From assembly GCA_009839325.1 (NCBI GenBank), contig VXPW01000008.1, positions 1 through 34,336 on the forward strand: 34,336 nucleotides of DNA, written 5' to 3'. The translations under genes were made by a program, and so were the position numbers. The stretch's first letter is position 1. Each line of letters begins with the position of its first letter. The notes beneath the pieces are model-generated. The model searched no databases and had not been told where the DNA came from. It saw only the letters and a list, made by a program, of their open reading frames with translations. Shown in pieces: positions 4,942-17,813 of this stretch. The stretch comes from Rhodospirillales bacterium (GTDB lineage Bacteria; Pseudomonadota; Alphaproteobacteria; TMED109).

Positions 4942-7518
4942 ATGAACGTGCTGGTGGTGTTCCTAGGCTTGGGGTTCGCCGTCATCGGGTTTGCCGCGGC
5001 GGTCTGCATCATCCTTCCGCTGCCTCGAATTCGTCTAGTGACGCGATTCCGAGCGCTGGGGGTGCTCATATTGGCGTGCGTGGCCTACGTGGCTGTCGGG
5101 TACGTCCTTGGGGAGTACGGGCTCTATGGCCGGCCTGGTCCCTGGGGTTGGCTCGTGGTCCTGGCAGCCGGATTCGGAATCCTCCGATTTGTACTCGCTG
5201 ACCGCAGGCGAAAGCCTGTAGCGATCCGAACGCCTGACAAGCCTTCGGCCAAGGTACCGGTTCCGGAGTCACCGGCGGAGGTGGCCCGACCGGATATAAC
5301 GCCAGTGGAGAAGGACTCCGAGCCACGACCGGCGGCGTCGCCGCCAGTTGGAGCCCCGCAGAGAACTTCAGCGGGTACGCCTGTGAACGGCGGCACTCCG
5401 GCAGAAGTTGTGTCGCATCCCGCTCCCGCCGCGCCACGCCGCGGTCAGGTGAGACGGGTCCCTCGAACCGGTACGCACTGGATTGATCCGGGCGACGACG
5501 TAAGGGTCGCCGGCCGTCATCTCGGCGGCATGGTCTACGTCGGTTCGGAAACCCTCCAGGACACTTGGGAACACGCGAACAACGCCCTGATCGATCCGCG
5601 ATTGCCGGTGGCAAGGCTTGGCACAGATTTGGGCGGCGAGAGCCTGCCGTACTGGCCGAGCTATCGCGACATCAACCCGCGGGCGCGCGCAACCTACCTG
5701 GATTGGCTGGCCGGAGGTCGGTCGGACCCGCGAATCGGGCCAGGGTACGTGTTTCTGTATTTCTATGGCCTCGAGCGACGGTTCTTCCAGGACGCCCCTA
5801 CGGAGGAAGAAAGGCGTCTCCTGGTCGCGGAGGTTTCGCGGCTCCATGAGGCCCACGGCGAGAATCATTCGGTCCGGCGGTATCTCGGCGTATTCCTGAA
5901 CGCTGCGGCCGTGGTTCTGGAACCCCATGGGGAACACAAGCCGCCCTTCGCAAGGTCGGCGCACGAGTTGCCCCTTTTGCTCCGTGTCGCGATCGGACAA
6001 ATGGTGAAGTCAGGGCAGCCGCTTAGCGCCGACTGGCTGCTCGAATGGTACGTCGCCCATCCGGATACCAGGCTCCGGACTGCCGTCACCCGAGCTCTCG
6101 CTGAATTCAGGGTGCTCTTCATGCTGCTCTTCGACGACCGGTTTCCGGAAGGACTCTTGCTTCGGGCACCCAAACGGAGGCTGCGGGCCGTCTACCGCGC
6201 CGCGTCGGGGACATTCGAGGCGGATCTTCGGAGTGCTCTTGGTGACATGCCCGACATTGCGGCGCTGTCGCGGCCGGTCACGGTGGCCCGGGAGATCGCC
6301 GACGAGGCCGCCGGCGCACTCCAGAAGTACAGCCGCTTTCTCGGCCGCAACCCGAATGGGCGGGACACGATTGAGGCGCACGCCCTCTTGCCCGAGCTGC
6401 TTTGGCCGCATTTCCCCTCCGCCGGAATGGAGGCTCTCCGGCATTGGGCGCAAGCCAGGATCGACGACGGCGGCCTCGTGCCGGTTGAGCAGGTGGTCGA
6501 GCGTCTGGAGGGAGCGACGCCCGACAAGCTGGGGAAGCGTCAGTTGACCGGTGCCGCCGACGCACTCGCCCGTTTGTCGATCGGCCTGGCACCGGACCCG
6601 AGGTTCGCCTTGCGCAGTCCGAGAATCGGCGAACCGGTGGTCCTGTTCCGGCTGCCTGCCGGGTTGACGAAGCTCGAAGACGTCAGCGAGACCTACAAGA
6701 ATCTCTTGTTCCACGTCGCGATGGGGAGCTTTATTGCCCAAGCCGACGGCACCGTGGCAGCGAAGGAGCGTGAAGTCTTGGAAGATCGGATCGATACGTC
6801 GGGACTGCGCCCCGACGAGCGCGCGCGGCTCCACGCCAATCTCACGTGGATGCTGGAAATTCCGCCCGACGTCGGCCTGTTCCGGCGCCGGCTCCGGGAT
6901 GCACCCGAGGGGACGCGGCACGTGCTCGGCCAGGCGGCCCTTGCCCTGGCGGCTGTAGACGGCGTCATCGACCCGAACGAAATCAAGGCTATCGAGCGGT
7001 TGTACAGCGCGATCGGCCTCCCCACCGAGGGGATCTACGCGGATCTGCACGCACTTACGGCACGTTCCGAGCCTGTCACGGTCGTCGCGCCCGGGCAGTC
7101 GGAGAACGTCGGCTACGCGGTCCCGTCACCGCCGCCCGAAGACCACAGCGTCGTGCTCGATGCGGAGCGTGTGGCCGCGCTGGTGGCCGACACCGCCAAG
7201 GTGTCCTCGGTGTTGGGAGAGATCTTCGACGACGGCACGGACGCGGAGGAGGAAGACCTCGAAGAATCGCTGGATGGGGAGGGGAGCGACTTCCCGGGCC
7301 TTGACGCCCAGCATGCGGCATTCCTCGACGAGTTGCTGACCCGCACCCAATGGGATGAGTCGGAATTCGCAGCGTTGGCGCGGCAGTTCCGGCTGATGGA
7401 GGAGGGAGCCCTCGAGACGGTGAACGAGTGGGCCTTCGAGCAGCATGACGGTCTACTGATCGAGGCCTACGAGGGCTACGAGATCAATCCGGACATTGCG
7501 GCAGAGTTACGATCCTGA
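4942..7518 (+). CDS. sngA: Shango SngA: membrane-anchored TerB-domain protein
   Basis: This is an 858-residue protein and the first gene of a complete Shango anti-phage cassette. Three transmembrane helices (about 4-26, 37-57 and 68-85) are followed by a Pro/Ala-rich linker (90-175). A TerB_N-type domain begins near residue 178 and includes PYWPSYRDINPRARATYLDW and GYVFLYFYGLERR (268-280). A central TerB-like helical repeat lies at 588-705, with the acidic repeats AQADGTVAAKE and AAVDGVIDPNE. An acidic stretch (763-785) precedes a TerB_C-like tail (785-858). TerB-fold proteins were first linked to tellurite resistance and later to membrane-associated DNA-processing systems. The sequence suggests that SngA tethers the ATPase and helicase to the membrane, but its biochemistry is not visible. 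A GAGGAAG site precedes the ATG. The stop lies 10 bp before the ATPase gene. Confidence 0.9.
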   Translation: MNVLVVFLGLGFAVIGFAAAVCIILPLPRIRLVTRFRALGVLILACVAYVAVGYVLGEYGLYGRPGPWGWLVVLAAGFGILRFVLADRRRKPVAIRTPDKPSAKVPVPESPAEVARPDITPVEKDSEPRPAASPPVGAPQRTSAGTPVNGGTPAEVVSHPAPAAPRRGQVRRVPRTGTHWIDPGDDVRVAGRHLGGMVYVGSETLQDTWEHANNALIDPRLPVARLGTDLGGESLPYWPSYRDINPRARATYLDWLAGGRSDPRIGPGYVFLYFYGLERRFFQDAPTEEERRLLVAEVSRLHEAHGENHSVRRYLGVFLNAAAVVLEPHGEHKPPFARSAHELPLLLRVAIGQMVKSGQPLSADWLLEWYVAHPDTRLRTAVTRALAEFRVLFMLLFDDRFPEGLLLRAPKRRLRAVYRAASGTFEADLRSALGDMPDIAALSRPVTVAREIADEAAGALQKYSRFLGRNPNGRDTIEAHALLPELLWPHFPSAGMEALRHWAQARIDDGGLVPVEQVVERLEGATPDKLGKRQLTGAADALARLSIGLAPDPRFALRSPRIGEPVVLFRLPAGLTKLEDVSETYKNLLFHVAMGSFIAQADGTVAAKEREVLEDRIDTSGLRPDERARLHANLTWMLEIPPDVGLFRRRLRDAPEGTRHVLGQAALALAAVDGVIDPNEIKAIERLYSAIGLPTEGIYADLHALTARSEPVTVVAPGQSENVGYAVPSPPPEDHSVVLDAERVAALVADTAKVSSVLGEIFDDGTDAEEEDLEESLDGEGSDFPGLDAQHAAFLDELLTRTQWDESEFAALARQFRLMEEGALETVNEWAFEQHDGLLIEAYEGYEINPDIAAELRS

Positions 7519-7528
7519 GGGACGACCC

Positions 7529-8827
7529 ATGGCAACTTCGAAAATCAGACGACGCGAGCGCGACACCATCATCCAGGCGCTGAGGGCGGGCGTGGTGCCC
7601 AAGCTCGGGCTGCAGCACATCCAGGTGGGGCGCGCGCGCGAGATCGACGAACTGATCCGCGACATCGCCCGCATCCGCGATGGCGGTGCCGCAATCCGCT
7701 TCGTCGTCGGCGAATACGGATCGGGCAAAACGTTCTTCCTCAACCTGATCCGCCTGGTTGCCCTGGAGAAGGGACTGGTCGTGCTGTCGGCGGACATGGC
7801 GCCGGATCGGCGATTGCACGCGACCGGTGGTCAGGCCCGCTCCCTCTATGCGGAGATGACCCGGAACGCTTCGACGCGGACAAGGCCCGAGGGCGGCGCC
7901 ATGGCATCGATCGTCGAGCGCTTCGCTAGTCAGGCGGTGCGCGAGGCGGAAGCCGGCGACCGGGAGCCCGGCGATGTCATCCGCGAGAAGCTCTCGGATC
8001 TGGAGGAACTCACCGGCGGCTACGACTTTGCCACGGTGATCGCGCGCTACTGGGAGGGATTCGAGACGGGGGACGAGGAGCTCAAGTCGGCGGCGCTGCG
8101 GTGGCTCAGGGCCGAATGGTCTACCCGGACCGATGCCCGGAAAGCTCTCGGTGTTCGGACGATCATCGACGATGCGAACGTCTACGACCAGCTGAAGCTG
8201 CTTGCAATGTTCGTGCGCGAGGCGGGATACAAGGGGCTGCTCGTCTCGCTCGACGAGCTGGTCAACCTCTACAAGCTGGCGTCGTCCCAGGCGAGGAAAT
8301 CGAACTACGAGCAGATCCTCCGCATCCTCAACGACGTGTTGCAGGGGAGCGCCCGGCACCTCGGCTTCGTGCTGGGTGGGACGCCGGAATTCCTGATGAA
8401 CACGCGCCGCGGTCTCTACAGCTACGAGGCGCTCCAGTCCCGGCTCGCCGAGAACACCTTCGCGCGGGACGGTCTCGTCGACCTGTCGGGGCCGGTCATG
8501 CGCCTGAGCAACTTGACCCCGGAGGACATGTACGTCTTGCTCGCGAACGTCCGCCGCGTAGTGCTGGGAAATGACGCCGGCGTCCCCGACGCGGCGCTCA
8601 AAGCCTTCATGGCCCACTGCGCCGAGCGCATCGGGGACGCCTACTTCCGGACGCCCCGCAACACGGTCACCGCCTTCGTCAACCTTCTCTCGGTGCTGGA
8701 GCAGAACCCAGGTGCAGGCTGGCAGGACCTGATCGGTTCGGTCGATGTGGCGACCGACTCCGGAGACGACATGCAGGACATCCACGACGACCCGGCGGAT
8801 GATGGACTCGCGTCCTTCAAGCTCTGA
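7529..8827 (+). CDS. sngB: Shango SngB: P-loop ATPase
   Basis: This encodes a 432-residue AAA/STAND-like ATPase. Walker A is GEYGSGKT at residues 61-68, Walker B is LLVSLDE at 237-243, and VLGGTPEF at 281-288 matches a sensor-1 strand. An N-terminal stretch (VPKLGLQHIQVGRAREID) resembles the start of DUF2791 ATPases such as BrxD of BREX systems. The ATG at 7529 was chosen because a GAGGGA site lies just upstream; a TTG at 7496 would overlap the previous gene. The gene follows sngA by 10 bp and overlaps sngC by 29 bp, so the three are almost certainly co-translated. In this family the ATPase probably works with the helicase on DNA. That role is inferred from its relatives, not shown by the sequence. 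Confidence 0.9.
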   Translation: MATSKIRRRERDTIIQALRAGVVPKLGLQHIQVGRAREIDELIRDIARIRDGGAAIRFVVGEYGSGKTFFLNLIRLVALEKGLVVLSADMAPDRRLHATGGQARSLYAEMTRNASTRTRPEGGAMASIVERFASQAVREAEAGDREPGDVIREKLSDLEELTGGYDFATVIARYWEGFETGDEELKSAALRWLRAEWSTRTDARKALGVRTIIDDANVYDQLKLLAMFVREAGYKGLLVSLDELVNLYKLASSQARKSNYEQILRILNDVLQGSARHLGFVLGGTPEFLMNTRRGLYSYEALQSRLAENTFARDGLVDLSGPVMRLSNLTPEDMYVLLANVRRVVLGNDAGVPDAALKAFMAHCAERIGDAYFRTPRNTVTAFVNLLSVLEQNPGAGWQDLIGSVDVATDSGDDMQDIHDDPADDGLASFKL

Positions 8828-11027
8828 GCCGTCCCGGGCGTTCGACCGGCTGGCGGAGCCCGTCCGCCGGTGGATCTGGGACAAGGGTTGGCAGAGCCTG
8901 CGTGACATCCAGGAGCGTGCAATTCCGCTGCTGGTGGACGGCGACGACGACGTGATCATTGCCGCCGCGACTGCTGGCGGAAAGACTGAAGCTGCGTTCC
9001 TCCCGCTCATCTCGCAGGTCTTGGACCAACCGGGGGACGGCGGTTTCGACCTTCTCTACGTGGGACCGCTGCGGGCCCTCATCAATGACCAGTTCGAGCG
9101 GTTGGACGACCTGTGCGAGCGGGCCGAGCTTCCCGTGTTCCCCTGGCACGGCGATATTGCGCAGGGCGTGAAGAGCCGGGCCCGCAAGAACCCGCGCGGC
9201 GTGCTGCTGATCACCCCGGAATCGCTCGAGGCCCTGTTCGTGCTGCGCGGGTTGGAGGTGCCCACGCTGTTTGCCGGCACGCGGGCCGTCGTGGTCGACG
9301 AGTTGCATGCGCTACTCGATACCGAGCGCGGCATCCACATGCGCTCGCTCCTGACCCGGCTCGAGGTGGCGCTCGGGCGCCGGATTCGAAGGGTGGGCCT
9401 GTCCGCGACGCTGGGGGAGATGGAACTTGCCCGCGAATACCTCCGCCCGGAAGCGCCCGGGGACGTGGTGGTGCTGGAGAGCCGGTCGAATTCGCAGGAA
9501 CTCCAGGTGCAGATCCGCGGCTACCTCCGCGAGGGGGACCGCGGAGAGGACGCCGATTCGGAAGCGGAAGCTGCATCGGCGGAGCACGCCGTGGCGAAGC
9601 ACCTGTTCGCCAAGCTCCGCGGGAAGCGAAACCTGATCTTTGCGGGATCACGACGGTCGGTCGAATCGTATGCCGACATGCTCCGCAAGATCTCGGAAGA
9701 CGAGCGCGTGCCGCTGGAATTCTTGCCGCATCACGCCAGCCTCTCGCGGGATCATCGGCTCGATCTCGAACGACGGCTCAAGGAGTATCCGGCGACCACC
9801 GCCGTCTGCACGTCGACACTCGAACTCGGCATCGATATCGGCGATATCGCATGCGTGGCGCAGATTGGCCCGCCGTTCTCCGTGGCGTCGCTGCGCCAGC
9901 GCCTGGGCCGGGCCGGGCGGCGCGCCGACCAGCCGGCCGTGCTCCGCATGTATGCCGTTGAGACGGACCCCGACGCCGAGGCGCACCCGCTGGACCGCCT
10001 GCACCTCGATCTGATCCGCTCGATCGCGATGGTCGAGCTGCTGATTGAGAAATGGTGCGAGCCCCCCACGCGCCAGGCGCTGCACCTCTCCGCGCTCACC
10101 CACCAGGTGCTGTCGGTGATCGCCGAGCACAATGGGGTGAAGGCCGGGCGGCTCTACCGGACCCTCTGCGAGCGGGGACCGTTTCGCCGCGTGACCCGGG
10201 AACTGTTCGCAAGCCTGCTGCGGCAGCTCGGCAGTGCCGACGTCGCACTGATCGAGCAGGATTCCGAGGGCACCCTGCTGCTCGGTCGTCACGGCGAACG
10301 TCTGGTGGAACACTATCGGTTTTATGCGGTGTTCCAGACCCCGGAAGAGTACCGGATCGTCGCCGACCGCAAGCCGCTGGGCACCCTGCCGGTGATCATG
10401 ATCCTGACGGTCGGCATGACCATCATCTTTGCCGGCCGACGCTGGCGCGTCCTCAGCATCCATGAGGAAGAGAAACTGATCGAGGTCACCGCCGACCGCG
10501 TGGGACGGCCGCCGCCGTTCGGTGGCAGCGCCGGGGTCATCCACGATCGGGTGGTGAAACAAATGATGGCGGTGCTGCAGGGAACGGCCGCGCCGGCCTA
10601 TCTGGATGCGACCGCAGTCAGGCTGCTGGCACACGCGCGTCGCGAGTTTCAAAGGTTGGACGTCGGCGGAAAACCTGTCTGCGAGTTGAGTCCGGACAAC
10701 TGGCTCATTGCGACGTTGAGCGGCACCGTCAAGACATCATCGCTCGCGCTGGTGCTGCGGGCGCAGGGGTACCGGGCGGACGTGTACGACGGTTTTCTCG
10801 ATGTAACCCGCGATGGGGATCTGCCTCCGGTGGGGGAGGCGCTCGAAGGAATCGTGTCGTCCGGGCCCGCGGCGCTCAAGGAATCCTTGGCCGGTGGGAA
10901 GAACCTGATGGTCGAGAAATTCCATCCCTACCTGAGCCAGGCACTCCTTGTCGAAGACGCCGTCAGCAGCAGGGTCGACTTTAAGAGCCTGCCGCAGCAT
11001 GCACGGAGACTGCTTGGTGCCGGCTAG
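8799..11027 (+). CDS. sngC: Shango SngC: Lhr-like superfamily 2 helicase
   Basis: This 742-residue DEAD/DEAH-type helicase has all SF2 motifs. Motif I is ATAGGKTEA (57-65), Ia is VGPLRALIND, Ib is ITPESLEAL, II is DELH (167-170), III is SAT (202-204), IV is IFAGSRRSVES (280-290), V is TSTLELGIDIGDI (338-350) and VI is QRLGRAGRR (367-375). The DELH box, the motif V and VI wording and a long C-terminal extension after the RecA lobes resemble Lhr-type DNA helicases and the BrxHI helicase of BREX. Two adjacent ATGs (8799 and 8802) sit inside the end of sngB. I use the first; an upstream in-frame ATG at 8745 would add 18 residues of poor quality inside sngB. This is the presumed DNA-translocating effector of the Shango cassette. 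Confidence 0.9.
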   Translation: MMDSRPSSSEPSRAFDRLAEPVRRWIWDKGWQSLRDIQERAIPLLVDGDDDVIIAAATAGGKTEAAFLPLISQVLDQPGDGGFDLLYVGPLRALINDQFERLDDLCERAELPVFPWHGDIAQGVKSRARKNPRGVLLITPESLEALFVLRGLEVPTLFAGTRAVVVDELHALLDTERGIHMRSLLTRLEVALGRRIRRVGLSATLGEMELAREYLRPEAPGDVVVLESRSNSQELQVQIRGYLREGDRGEDADSEAEAASAEHAVAKHLFAKLRGKRNLIFAGSRRSVESYADMLRKISEDERVPLEFLPHHASLSRDHRLDLERRLKEYPATTAVCTSTLELGIDIGDIACVAQIGPPFSVASLRQRLGRAGRRADQPAVLRMYAVETDPDAEAHPLDRLHLDLIRSIAMVELLIEKWCEPPTRQALHLSALTHQVLSVIAEHNGVKAGRLYRTLCERGPFRRVTRELFASLLRQLGSADVALIEQDSEGTLLLGRHGERLVEHYRFYAVFQTPEEYRIVADRKPLGTLPVIMILTVGMTIIFAGRRWRVLSIHEEEKLIEVTADRVGRPPPFGGSAGVIHDRVVKQMMAVLQGTAAPAYLDATAVRLLAHARREFQRLDVGGKPVCELSPDNWLIATLSGTVKTSSLALVLRAQGYRADVYDGFLDVTRDGDLPPVGEALEGIVSSGPAALKESLAGGKNLMVEKFHPYLSQALLVEDAVSSRVDFKSLPQHARRLLGAG

Positions 11028-11131
11028 GGCGGACGGTGCCGAGTGACCAACCGGACTACGGTGTCGCGATGCGCCCCCCGTGGTGGGATTTCCGTGCCAG
11101 TAGCAGCTCGATTGTCGTGAAGGAGACGCGC

Positions 11132-11752
11132 ATGAAGCACGATGAAACGTGGTGGAGAACCATGAATACGAGGCCGATGGCCGACCGGCAGATCGATCAG
11201 CTCATCGGTCTTGCCCAGGGGATTGTCGCGGACGGAATCGTCAACCAAACCGAGGCTGAAGTGCTCCAGAACTGGCTCCGGGCGAATCGGCGCACCAACA
11301 ACCTTTACGTGAGTCGGCTACTCGACCTCGTGGAGGCAGTGTTGAGGGATGGAGTGCTCGACGATGACGAGAGTCGGGACCTGCACGACGCCCTCATGAG
11401 TTGGACGGGTGGCGGGGAAACAGACCGCGGGGGGCAGACCTCTGCATCCCTGCCGCTCGACCCGATGCCGCGAACCGTGGTCATTCCCGGGAACATCTTC
11501 GTGTTCACAGGTACGGGTGTATTCGGAACCCGGAGGGAGATGCATGAGGCGACAATTGGAGCCGGTGGCACCGTAGACGGCAACGTCACGAAACGAACGA
11601 ATTTCGTCGTGCTGGGAACTTATGTCACGCCGGCGTGGGCACACCAGAGTTTCGGGCGGAAGATTGAGAAGGCTATGGAGTACCGTGACCACCAAGGGAC
11701 TGGTCTTCGAATCGTGCACGAGGAGGACTGGATGGGAGCCTTGGGATCGTAA
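11132..11752 (+). CDS. TerB-like plus BRCT domain protein, possible Shango accessory
   Basis: The protein has 206 residues. The ATG at 11132 has AAGGAG six bases upstream; an open frame reaches back to 11036 but without such a site. The N-terminal ~90 residues are helical with two acidic repeats, GIVADGIVNQTEAE and VLRDGVLDDDESRD, each the kind of DG...E loop seen in TerB/DjlA-like domains and in the neighbouring SngA. After a linker, residues ~115-205 form a BRCT domain: IFVFTGTGVFGTRREMHEAT, then GGTVDGNVTKRTNFVVLG and a C-terminal EEDWMGAL helix, like the BRCT of bacterial DNA ligase. BRCT domains bind DNA ends or phosphopeptides. It starts 104 bp after sngC on the same strand. A role in Shango is an inference from the shared TerB-like fold and proximity. 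Confidence 0.8.
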   Translation: MKHDETWWRTMNTRPMADRQIDQLIGLAQGIVADGIVNQTEAEVLQNWLRANRRTNNLYVSRLLDLVEAVLRDGVLDDDESRDLHDALMSWTGGGETDRGGQTSASLPLDPMPRTVVIPGNIFVFTGTGVFGTRREMHEATIGAGGTVDGNVTKRTNFVVLGTYVTPAWAHQSFGRKIEKAMEYRDHQGTGLRIVHEEDWMGALGS

Positions 11753-12944: not shown

Positions 12945-13559
12945 TCAATTCTTCTTGTGGGATCGAACAGATGCGACGACGACGCCCTTGATGTCTGATC
13001 CCTCATCACTCAGCAATGCTGGTGCGCCCTCTATAGATCCCACTGCGAGCATGATGCGACCATTAACGAGGCGTGTCCGCCCGATAGCGACTTTACCGTC
13101 GACACTCGCGACGACCATCTCGCCCCCATGCGCGTCGCGTGCCTCCCGCACCGCGACCAAGTCCCCATCGTGCAGTCCGATACCCGTGGCTATTCCACCC
13201 TGGATTCTGAGGCAGAAATCCGGCCGCGTGCCGAAAATCGCAACAGCCGCTTCAACAGAAATTGTGCGTTCGACATGGTCGCCGGGACGCAGCGACGTAT
13301 CGGGTAGTACACGCCGGACGATGGGCACACCATCGCCCGAGTGCGACGCGTCAACAATCCTGATGCCACGAGACCTGTGCGGCACGACCACAAGGCGCCC
13401 TTTGGCAACCAAGCGCTTCAGGTAGAGCGTGACCGTACTGACCGACTTCCATCCCAGAGCCTGGCGCAGTTCTTCGCGGGTTGGCGCGATCCCATCCGCG
13501 GCGATGTGGTTCTGCACCGCGGACATGAAGTCTGATTCCCGTCGGGTGAGGTCGCCCAT
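12945..13559 (-). CDS. LexA-like repressor lacking protease catalytic residues
   Basis: This encodes 204 residues. The N-terminal ~65 form a LexA winged helix (TRRESDFMSAVQNHIAADG, then PTREELRQALGWKSVSTVTL). The C-terminal part matches the S24 peptidase domain of LexA: FCLRIQGG (115-122), GIGLHDGDLVAV (126-137) and EMVVASVDGKVAIGR (147-161). Aligned with E. coli LexA, the catalytic Ser in GMSM falls on Ile123 (GGIA), and the catalytic Lys in VTVKRL falls on Gly160 (VAIGR). The Ala-Gly self-cleavage site is also absent from the linker. The fold is kept but autocleavage should be impossible, so this is probably a repressor not inactivated by RecA. The start is the ATG complementary to 13557-13559. 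It is divergent from the 13845 gene, and the shared 285-bp region holds candidate operators. Confidence 0.85.
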   Translation of the reverse strand: MGDLTRRESDFMSAVQNHIAADGIAPTREELRQALGWKSVSTVTLYLKRLVAKGRLVVVPHRSRGIRIVDASHSGDGVPIVRRVLPDTSLRPGDHVERTISVEAAVAIFGTRPDFCLRIQGGIATGIGLHDGDLVAVREARDAHGGEMVVASVDGKVAIGRTRLVNGRIMLAVGSIEGAPALLSDEGSDIKGVVVASVRSHKKN

Positions 13560-13647
13560 CGCCTGCCGTTTGTCTCTACCGTATCCACCGACTGTAGACG
13601 TACTGCCGGCACGTTAGGCGACGAATCGACGATCGCAAACAAGGTAC

Positions 13648-13678
13648 TTGACGAGCTGGTACATCATCGGCATATATA
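13648..13678 (+). promoter_or_regulatory. Sigma-70-type promoter for the 13845 gene
   Basis: A near-consensus -35 box TTGACG at 13648-13653 is followed by an AT-rich -10 region within catatatatg. Reading CATATA at 13671 gives a 17-base spacer; TATATA at 13673 gives 19. Transcription would begin at about 13684, just before the first hairpin of the leader. This is pattern recognition only. Confidence 0.55.
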
Positions 13679-13682
13679 TGCC
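13669..13682. promoter_or_regulatory. Perfect 14-bp palindrome over the -10 box, candidate operator
   Basis: The sequence ggcatatatatgcc is a perfect palindrome covering the -10 region of the promoter above. A dimeric repressor bound here would block RNA polymerase. The divergent LexA-like repressor gene, about 110 bp away, is the obvious candidate to bind it. That pairing is inferred from position and from the dimeric DNA-binding fold. It does not match the E. coli (CTGT-N8-ACAG) or usual alphaproteobacterial (GTTC-N7-GTTC) SOS boxes. Confidence 0.55.
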
Positions 13683-13683
13683 A

Positions 13684-13844
13684 ATCCGCCACTGAGATCT
13701 GGCGGAATTCGAGCGGCTCCCGCCAGCGGTGCAACGCCAACGGGAGCCTTTGACGAAGACGCAGAGGGTCTTCGTCACGGGCAGCATAGCGCGGGGCACT
13801 GCGCTTGCTGCCCGTGCGCCCTCTGCATGCAGAGGGAACGTCAC
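13684..13844 (+). promoter_or_regulatory. Structured leader RNA with competing hairpins
   Basis: Five inverted repeats follow one another in the predicted 5' leader. They are ccgcca/tggcgg (13686-13691, 13700-13705), ggctcccg/cgggagcc (13715-13722, 13741-13748), gacgaagac/gtcttcgtc (13752-13760, 13768-13776), acgggcagca/tgctgcccgt (13777-13786, 13806-13815) with an inner agcgc/gcgct, and the palindrome ccctctgcatgcagaggg (13819-13836). The last right arm contains the ribosome site GAGGGA. Two arms have alternative partners. CCCTCTGC (13819-13826) is also complementary to GCAGAGGG at 13761-13768, the loop of the third hairpin. TGGCGG is also complementary to a second CCGCCA at 13720-13725. Exclusive folds that hide or free the ribosome site are the signature of an RNA switch. 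No known riboswitch class is recognised. Confidence 0.55.
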
Positions 13845-14846
13845 ATGCAATCAGCGACCTCGGAAACAGGTTGTGAAAGCCTGCGCGCGGCCTTCGACAC
13901 GATCCGCAAGCGTCCGTGCCGGTTGTGCGGCACCAGCCCGGACGGGGTGTTTGCGCGATGCACGGCCCGATACGGCAAGGTAGGTCCGCTGCTCGTCATC
14001 GCCCGCGGCCCCGGCAATGAGTTGGCCTTGGCGGAGGTGGCGTGGGATGGCGACGGCGAGGTCGGCTGTGTGAACCCAGAGGCGCTGTACTTGGTACGGC
14101 CCCCTGCGTTGTCAGCTGCGGACGCGGCGACGGAAGACGCGGTACGCACCGCGGGCGGGGAACTCCGGATCGCGTCCGGCTTCAACGACCCACAAGTCAA
14201 ACGGACGGTCTGCAGGAGCGCCATGGCGACTACCTGGCAGGTGGCGGGTGTGTACCCCCTGGTCGAGAGCGGCGTGCTCCGGGAGACGCCGCGGCCGCTC
14301 CGCACGTTGGCCCATTCGAATGCACCCGCCTACGGGCGCTGGCCGGCCCCTTGGATGCCCTGGGTGTCAGTGTGCGATGTCGTTCCGTGGACGGAACTTC
14401 CGTTTCGACAGCGGGTCCGGAGGGGCAAGGAGGGCCTCCCCTGCGACGCCTTCGCTGCGGCCGGACTGCCGCCGGTGAGCATCGATGCGCACCCGATCGT
14501 GAAGGCCCTGGTGCTGGCTGCGTTGCTGCGGTGTGTGCCCTGGCAGAGTGACGGGAAATCGCTCGGAGCGCGCCTGTTGCCGCCGCCTCCGGCGGACGTG
14601 GCGATCGTGGGCATTTATCAAGGGCACGTCTATCGGCTCGGTTGCGACGGCCAGTACGAGCGGTTGTTCGCCAACTGTGACGATGCCCGCGCAGTAGGCG
14701 TGCGGGAGATTGAACTCGCGGCAGGGCACATGCGCATCGCTGATCAGTGCAACGGCGTGACCGCCCGCAAGGGAGTCAACGACGATGCACCTGTCAGCGA
14801 CGGGGCGCATGACAATCGGGCAAGCGCGTGCGAGCGCAAGGGGTGA
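13845..14846 (+). CDS. Unrecognised 333-residue protein with Cys-rich N-terminus
   Basis: The ATG at 13845 follows a GAGGGA ribosome site inside a perfect palindrome; an in-frame ATG at 13827 lies within the palindrome itself and has no site of its own. Near the N-terminus the sequence RKRPCRLCGTSPDG...RC has a CxxC and a further Cys, as in a small zinc-binding knuckle. The middle contains GPLLVIARGPGNELALAEVAWDGDG, and the body is soluble with many Trp/Pro-rich turns (GRWPAPWMPWVSV). There is no signal peptide or membrane helix. I do not recognise the family. The gene lies divergent from a LexA-fold repressor and is the last gene of the island before the tRNA, so it may be the regulated product of that unit. 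Confidence 0.7.
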   Translation: MQSATSETGCESLRAAFDTIRKRPCRLCGTSPDGVFARCTARYGKVGPLLVIARGPGNELALAEVAWDGDGEVGCVNPEALYLVRPPALSAADAATEDAVRTAGGELRIASGFNDPQVKRTVCRSAMATTWQVAGVYPLVESGVLRETPRPLRTLAHSNAPAYGRWPAPWMPWVSVCDVVPWTELPFRQRVRRGKEGLPCDAFAAAGLPPVSIDAHPIVKALVLAALLRCVPWQSDGKSLGARLLPPPPADVAIVGIYQGHVYRLGCDGQYERLFANCDDARAVGVREIELAAGHMRIADQCNGVTARKGVNDDAPVSDGAHDNRASACERKG

Positions 14847-15523: not shown

Positions 15524-15613
15524 TGGCGGAGGGAGAGGGATTCGAACCCTCGATACGGTTTCCCGCATACACGCACTCCAAGCGTGCGCCTTCGACCACT
15601 CGGCCACCCCTCC
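15524..15613 (-). tRNA. tRNA-Ser (anticodon GGA)
   Basis: The complement reads as a complete 90-nt class II tRNA including an encoded CCA. The acceptor stem is GGAGGGG with TCCCTCC and discriminator G. The anticodon stem CACGC/GCGTG encloses the loop TTGGAGT, giving anticodon GGA (reads UCC and UCU). A long variable arm (ATGCGGGAAACCGTAT) is diagnostic of tRNA-Ser, and the T arm is GAGGG-TTCGAAT-CCCTC. Its 3' end points left, toward the accessory island, which is the usual orientation when an element has integrated into a tRNA 3' end. Confidence 0.97.
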
Positions 15614-16952: not shown

Positions 16953-17813
16953 TCAGGAGGGTCGGTCGCCCTCGATCTGAATCCGCAGCATGCGTCGCCG
17001 GTAGCCGTGGTAGTCGTTCAGCGGGTAGTGCAGCGCGGCCCGGTTGTCCCAGAAGGCAAGCGATCCGGCGGCCCACCGGAAACGGGCCGTGAACGGAGCC
17101 TGCGACTGATGGGCAAACAGCCATCGCAGCAGCGGCTCGCTCTCGTCTTCGGTCATGCCGACGAAACGGACCGAATGGGCTCCGTTCACGTAGAGCACCT
17201 TGCGGCCGGTTTCCGGGTGGGTCCGCACCACGGGATGCACGGCCTGGAATGTCCGGTCCTGCAACGAGCCCGAACGCGGCGCACGGGTCGCGGAGACGGC
17301 GGCCCCGTCCGAACGGTTTACTGCACGGAGCGGCTCCAGCATCGCCTGCATGCCGGGCGACAGGGCGTCGAAGGCCTGATAGCCGTTGGCGAACAGCGTG
17401 TCGCCACCGACCTGGGGCACTTCCAGCGCGTACAGGAGGCTCGCCATCGGAGGACGTTCGAGATAGGCGGTGTCGGTGTGCCAGAGACCGCCGAAGTTGA
17501 CGGTCTCGTCCTCGCGCTTGAGTACTTCGATGACATGGGGTTCTTCCGGGACTCCCGTCACCATCGGGTACGGCATCGGCGTGCCGAACAGCCGCGCGAA
17601 TGCGGCAAGCTCCCTGGCGCCGAGCGTCTGATCCCGAAAGAAGACGACCAGGTACTGAAGCCAGATTTCCCGGATCGATTGCACCGTCTGCGGATCGAGC
17701 GGCGTCGAAAGATCCACGCCGCCGATTTCAGCGCCCAGTGCGCCGGGGAGCGGCCGCACCGTCAACGAGGACCGTTGCGCTCCCTCGGTAAGGGTGTCCT
17801 GGCCACCTACCAT
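16953..17813 (-). CDS. TauD/TfdA-family 2-oxoglutarate dioxygenase
   Basis: This encodes 286 residues from the ATG complementary to 17811-17813, chosen because GAGGGA stands just upstream; the frame is open to 17960 but the extra residues are unlike the family. The N-terminal LTVRPLPGALGAEIGGVDLS is the TauD signature start. Fe ligands are H112 and D114 in LWHTDTAYLERPP and H262 in WDNRAALHYPLNDY, and R277 in RRMLRIQ binds 2-oxoglutarate. Relatives release sulfite from taurine or cleave aryloxyacetates and other acids. The exact substrate is not evident here. No sulfonate transporter is adjacent, so a taurine role is not supported by context. Confidence 0.9.
   Translation of the reverse strand: MVGGQDTLTEGAQRSSLTVRPLPGALGAEIGGVDLSTPLDPQTVQSIREIWLQYLVVFFRDQTLGARELAAFARLFGTPMPYPMVTGVPEEPHVIEVLKREDETVNFGGLWHTDTAYLERPPMASLLYALEVPQVGGDTLFANGYQAFDALSPGMQAMLEPLRAVNRSDGAAVSATRAPRSGSLQDRTFQAVHPVVRTHPETGRKVLYVNGAHSVRFVGMTEDESEPLLRWLFAHQSQAPFTARFRWAAGSLAFWDNRAALHYPLNDYHGYRRRMLRIQIEGDRPS

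Follow-up and report, generated by a model that had tools for sequence, protein, structure and literature searches.

The window analysed here (the whole stretch of DNA, 34,336 nucleotides) spans the whole of one contig (C20) in a draft genome of 2.73 Mb, labelled G000. Comparisons within the genus refer to a set of seven genomes (alphaproteobacterial MAGs). The features on which the analysis is based are the following:

4942-7518: SngA-like TerB protein (Shango-like defence)
8745-11027: SngC-like helicase (Shango-like defence)
11036-11752: BRCT-domain protein, after the SngC-like helicase
12945-13559, minus strand: LexA-like repressor gene, pointing away from the hairpins
13667-13684, no strand assigned: 18-bp inverted repeat with one mismatch, overlapping a weak promoter-like sequence
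13685-13706, plus strand: hairpin H1, specific to the window; 13720-13726 is an alternative partner for its right arm
13715-13748, plus strand: hairpin H2, the first of the conserved cassette
13751-13777, plus strand: hairpin H3, loop GCAGAGG; its GACGCAGAGGG is identical in the homologous copy of genome G002
13776-13816, plus strand: hairpin H4, the last of the conserved cassette, with two bases common to H3
13819-13836, plus strand: H5, a perfect 18-bp palindrome (CCCTCTGCATGCAGAGGG) whose right arm carries AGAGGG, a likely ribosome site; absent from G002
13845-14846, plus strand: ORF333, an orphan protein gene directly downstream of the leader
15524-15613, minus strand: tRNA-Ser(GGA), the left edge of the conserved chromosome and thus the island border

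The conserved chromosome begins at the tRNA-Ser gene (15524) in G002, G004 and G005, and at most 32 bp from there in G001 and G003; left of this gene no match to the five genomes was seen in the stretches compared. Given the SngA- and SngC-like Shango genes and the LexA-like gene in the left part, together with a chromosomal similarity that starts at tRNA-Ser, we place the leader on a genomic island. The tRNA-Ser(GGA) gene itself (15524-15613) acts as a border in at least five genomes of the genus and is an apparent integration hotspot.

The product of the LexA-like gene matches TIGR00498 lexA with 114.6 bits (cut-off 110.95) as well as the Pfam domains LexA_DNA_bind and Peptidase_S24. A promoter had been claimed ahead of the leader on the basis of the sequence, a claim to which a consensus scan of 13400-14000 lent no match; visual inspection shows a weak TTGACG...TATATA pair, spaced by 19 nt, at 13648-13678. 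Even with up to three mismatches allowed, the genome has a single site of the 18-bp inverted repeat, 13667-13684, situated between the leader and the LexA-like gene. Judged from its sequence and position, it may be a candidate operator of the LexA-like repressor.

ORF333 belongs to no family in Pfam, PADLOC, NCBIfam or PHROGs, has no PDB relative below E 0.65, and its predicted structure, at a mean pLDDT of 37, is of no use. No ORF333 match came up when viral contigs were scanned at the protein level. The only relative of the gene that was found is a decayed fragment in G002, located approximately 12.4 kb from the same tRNA-Ser. Against this fragment, 105 codons show 28, 20 and 44 substitutions at the three codon positions, a coding-type pattern on which we rejected the idea that ORF333 is a spurious frame.

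Hairpins and fold strength of the leader

All five inverted repeats that the sequence-only reading had described ahead of the ATG at 13845 were recovered as H1 to H5 at the places indicated. The arms of H1 are TCCGCCA and TGGCGGA (13685-13691 and 13700-13706), and those of H4 (13776-13786 and 13806-13816) are fully complementary. The last repeat is indeed an 18-bp perfect palindrome with a plausible ribosome site in its right arm (AGAGGG at 13831-13836, 8 nt ahead of the ATG). Two alternative pairings had been pointed out as well and both exist in the letters: the left arm of H5, CCCTCTGC (13819-13826), is the exact complement of the octamer GCAGAGGG in the loop of H3 (13761-13768), and CTGGCGG at 13699-13705 is also complementary to CCGCCAG at 13720-13726.

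The fold of 13684-13860 has an energy of -97.9 kcal/mol (z -6.34), which none of 200 shuffles reached, and the minus strand of the leader folds as strongly (z -7.59). When the plus strand was scanned in 428 segments of 160 nt, with 24 shuffles each, the segment at 13681 (z -6.1) was level with the one at 17601 (z -6.1) and both were the strongest; for a segment set exactly at 13684, z was -8.9 (plus strand) and -7.8 (minus strand). A perfect palindrome of at least 18 bp appeared in 30 out of 20000 shuffled leaders, and the window has none besides H5. Chance does not account for the hairpins, which are real. The segment 17601-17760, located outside the hairpin leader, represents the second strongest fold signal in the window (z -6.1).

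Across the whole window, no Rfam 15 family reached its gathering cut-off except tRNA-Ser. The best sub-threshold score within the leader was 21.9 bits, where 78 would have been required, in agreement with the earlier statement that no known riboswitch class is recognised, and the G002 copy has no Rfam family match either. Since the Rfam and tRNA searches remained without a match there, tRNA-like, tmRNA and other known RNAs were rejected for the leader. The claim of an unusually structured noncoding leader thus holds (z -6.34, no Rfam family), and a homologue keeps H2, H3 and H4.

The homologue in G002

A BLAST search with the window matched positions 13714-13812 to G002 (72% identity, E 4e-5), the one other genome with a match among the 61 searched. 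Within the genus (seven genomes) the homologue is likewise found in one other genome, G002, and covers H2-H4, which we refer to as the cassette; left of H2, sequence comparison detects no similarity to the G002 copy. A search with covariance model R1 found one copy each in G000 and G002. The G002 copy scored a CM E of 9e-23 with G002 itself in the model: R1 was built from both sequences, so that E-values for these two are not independent.

Both the two-sequence alignment (A3) and model R1 place H2, H3 and H4 in the two copies. Among 34 countable pairs, 22 are unchanged, four have changed on both sides and still pair, four have changed on one side and still pair, and four are broken. In simulated substitution, four or more double changes occurred in 0.22% and four or fewer broken pairs in 0.30%, for a consensus structure that was taken mainly from the window fold and adjusted with both sequences in view. 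Structures slid along the alignment paired at most 49% of cells (against 95% for the actual structure), whereas the shuffle control of the covariation tool was weak (33 of 500 shuffles reached the observed value). The GACGCAGAGGG of H3 and ATAGCGC...GCGCTT of H4 are unchanged between the copies. Pairing of H2-H4 is kept through four two-sided changes in a comparison of two sequences only; H1 and H5 are absent from G002.

On its plus strand the G002 copy folds slightly better than its shuffles (z -1.68 over 231 nt; z -1.33 over 128 nt, 17 of 200), and on the minus strand it reaches z -2.48 (4 of 200 shuffles). The helices contain five G·T against seven A·C mispairs overall; those in H2 lean to the minus strand (one G·T, six A·C) and those in H4 to the plus strand (four G·T, no A·C). 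Given this balance, neither strand is favoured as the transcribed one, and a plus-strand preference based on the four wobble-type single changes was dropped, as counting A·C mispairs cancels it. A coding origin of the cassette was rejected on account of gaps of 1, 3, 4 and 2 columns between the copies.

Searches in wider collections added no further copy. Plasmids and phages gave no cassette match. Of the 14 stretches returned by a pattern scan of viral contigs, not one matched the model at E <0.5, and a tighter pattern returned one stretch that was already among them. The exact pattern occurred in 20 stretches of the genome contigs, of which the model confirmed G002 itself alone (L030). Model searches recovered the own genome and G002 among 28 genomes of the order and the own genome only among 385 of the class. 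In 398 genomes of the phylum the own genome was found together with a match in G725 (E 0.03), which was dropped as it lies inside an open reading frame; a match in G006 was dropped at E 0.57. The class and phylum samples were drawn from larger groups with stricter filters and possibly overlap.

The two copies differ in their surroundings. That of G002 precedes an M16 peptidase gene, unlike the window copy, which precedes ORF333. Orthologues of the peptidase are present in all seven genomes of the genus, and the model found no cassette ahead of them in G001, G003, G004, G005 and G006 (readable flanks); in G000 the corresponding place is occupied by a 100-N gap. G002 carries 1671 bp (contig L007, 7290-8960) where G003 has 84 bp, and the segment is missing from G005 as well. 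The cassette (L007, 8862 to approximately 8973) sits at the right edge of this segment, whose boundary lies in the final 13 bp of H4 or immediately after it. The segment replaces other sequence instead of being cleanly inserted, and it has no clear target-site duplication; recombination may have introduced it as a patchwork, or the MAG contigs may have been misjoined. The vertically inherited DNA of the M16 region shows about 93% identity between G000 and G002, and the far lower identity of the cassette argues for separate acquisition or fast change.

Two further observations concern this region. An 86-bp imperfect palindrome is located within the G002-specific segment (L007, 7381-7466) and may represent two facing insertion-sequence ends. 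In addition, the interval from a nucleotidyltransferase-like gene to M16 (e.g. in G001, L071) holds cargo that differs by genome, making it a second variable site of the genus.

Readings of the cassette

One proposal of the sequence-only reading was an RNA switch, in which a ligand or RNA event would form a pseudoknot between the H3 loop and 13819-13826, so that H5 opens and the ribosome site of ORF333 is freed. The octamers of the window complement each other exactly, and their 8-bp duplex (-14.6 kcal/mol, loop costs left aside) exceeds H5 (-10.8 kcal/mol); none of 5000 shuffles of the 3' segment pairs equally well with the loop, but this segment is a palindrome of that very octamer. The homologue does not follow. 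G002 lacks H5, 2385 of 5000 shuffles do as well as the best pairing that its loop makes with the 3' side (-11.9 kcal/mol), and the corresponding flanks of G003 and G005, which have no cassette, pair equally (-11.9 and -11.6 kcal/mol). Moreover, a fully formed 8-bp helix in a closed loop of 7-8 nt would leave no crossing nucleotides, about 5 bp being more realistic, and Rfam offers no match. With H5 and the ribosome site specific to the window and the loop pairing of G002 at chance level, the switch is not conserved. The copies precede unrelated genes (ORF333 and the M16 peptidase), no terminator match lies near either of them, and the 19-kb locus around the ORF333 fragment in G002 contains no cassette, the absence of hairpins upstream of orthologous genes being one of the refuting conditions that the sequence-only reading had set. 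The riboswitch reading is not supported, and we consider the loop switch itself very unlikely.

What H5 does in the window is a separate matter. It keeps the ribosome site mostly paired in the predicted fold (mean unpaired probability 0.14) and so probably masks it; H5 may hide the site in the window alone, as an arrangement that is not conserved. Poor default translation of ORF333 would then be the likeliest local effect.

Our preferred, still tentative reading, in which our confidence stays a little short of even, is that H2-H3-H4 (13715-13816) constitute a structured noncoding cassette of about 105 bp that is carried in this genus on horizontally acquired DNA, now placed between the LexA-like gene and ORF333. 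Directly observed are the hairpins, the changes that preserve pairing, the island surroundings, and a diverged homologue whose site is non-orthologous and recently rearranged. Island DNA would have brought the cassette in, a transcript from near 13684 would carry H1-H5 as the leader of ORF333, and the window-specific H5 would sequester the ribosome site, leaving ORF333 poorly translated by default. The cassette itself is real: a strongly palindromic noncoding element on apparently acquired DNA, with one known relative and a putative function only.

Two alternatives concern the level at which the hairpins act, and each of them is rather unlikely in our view. The cassette could be the gene of a trans-acting small RNA carried by islands, on either strand: the two downstream genes are unrelated, GACGCAGAGGG and ATAGCGC...GCGCTT did not change, and the minus strand folds strongly (z -7.6 in the window, z -2.5 in G002) with an H3 loop that would expose CCCUCUGC. 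This sequence resembles an anti-Shine-Dalgarno seed of the kind found in known sRNAs. Yet there is no promoter or terminator match near either the window or the G002 copy, and the mispairs (5 against 7) favour neither strand. That same balance (H2 with 1 G·T and 6 A·C, H4 with 4 G·T and 0 A·C) would suit a structure acting as DNA, the hairpins serving a mobile element as single-stranded DNA or protein-binding sites (in recombination, transfer or replication) or being kept palindromic by templated correction, as would the position at the edge of the G002-specific segment; against it, the scans made recognised no transposase, relaxase or recombinase adjoining either copy, and no clear target-site duplication was seen at the cassette. 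It might also be argued that an old element is decaying without function and that its hairpins are left by descent, in line with the orphan gene context, the decayed ORF333 fragment in G002 and the weak G002 fold. The pair-preserving changes exceed the simulation and the window copy is nearly perfect, however, which makes such a relic extremely improbable.

Returning to the structured cassette, a bolder extension would make it the first recognised representative of a family, without a name so far, of structured RNAs that move laterally in alphaproteobacterial MAGs. The invariant H3 loop would recognise cassette-adjacent sequence and, in the window, switch translation of ORF333 by pairing with the H5 arm. 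We regard this as highly doubtful. If the cassette family were real, its members would be small structured noncoding elements that spread together with defence islands and change the leaders of genes beside their landing site. The case also illustrates that an RNA switch which looks convincing in a single sequence can dissolve once one homologue is examined.

Comparison with known systems

The mechanism proposed by the sequence-only reading has a counterpart in repZ of ColIb-P9, for which Asano and Mizobuchi reportedly described in 1998 a pseudoknot switch where pairing of a loop to a distal sequence exposes the ribosome site. By contrast, no plasmid replication gene is present in our case, and the only homologue does not keep the loop pairing.

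As to MITE-like elements, a filled site (G002) can be compared with sites without the segment (G003 and G005), but the difference, 1671 bp against 84 bp in G003, is of the replacement type. With one copy per genome, no target-site duplication and no transposase seen alongside, a mobility of its own is at most conjectural for the cassette. The many copies expected of CIR, REP and other dispersed palindromic repeats are not seen, G000 and G002 having one copy each. According to PMC2229807, CIR, RPE, ERIC, RUP and RU are small palindromic mobile sequences of bacteria that occur in multiple copies; CIRs are found in Alphaproteobacteria, consist of two arms and a linker, and carry GANTC, a motif that is absent from 13684-13844 and from L007 8840-8990. 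The cassette shares with these elements a size of approximately 100-150 bp, an intergenic position and long inverted repeats, and differs in having one copy per genome and three hairpins (PMC2229807). REP palindromes (PMC3733652) are extragenic, tagged with GTAG/CGTC, 20-40 bp long and present in many copies; both they and the cassette are extragenic palindromes, the cassette being longer (approximately 105 bp) and single-copy.
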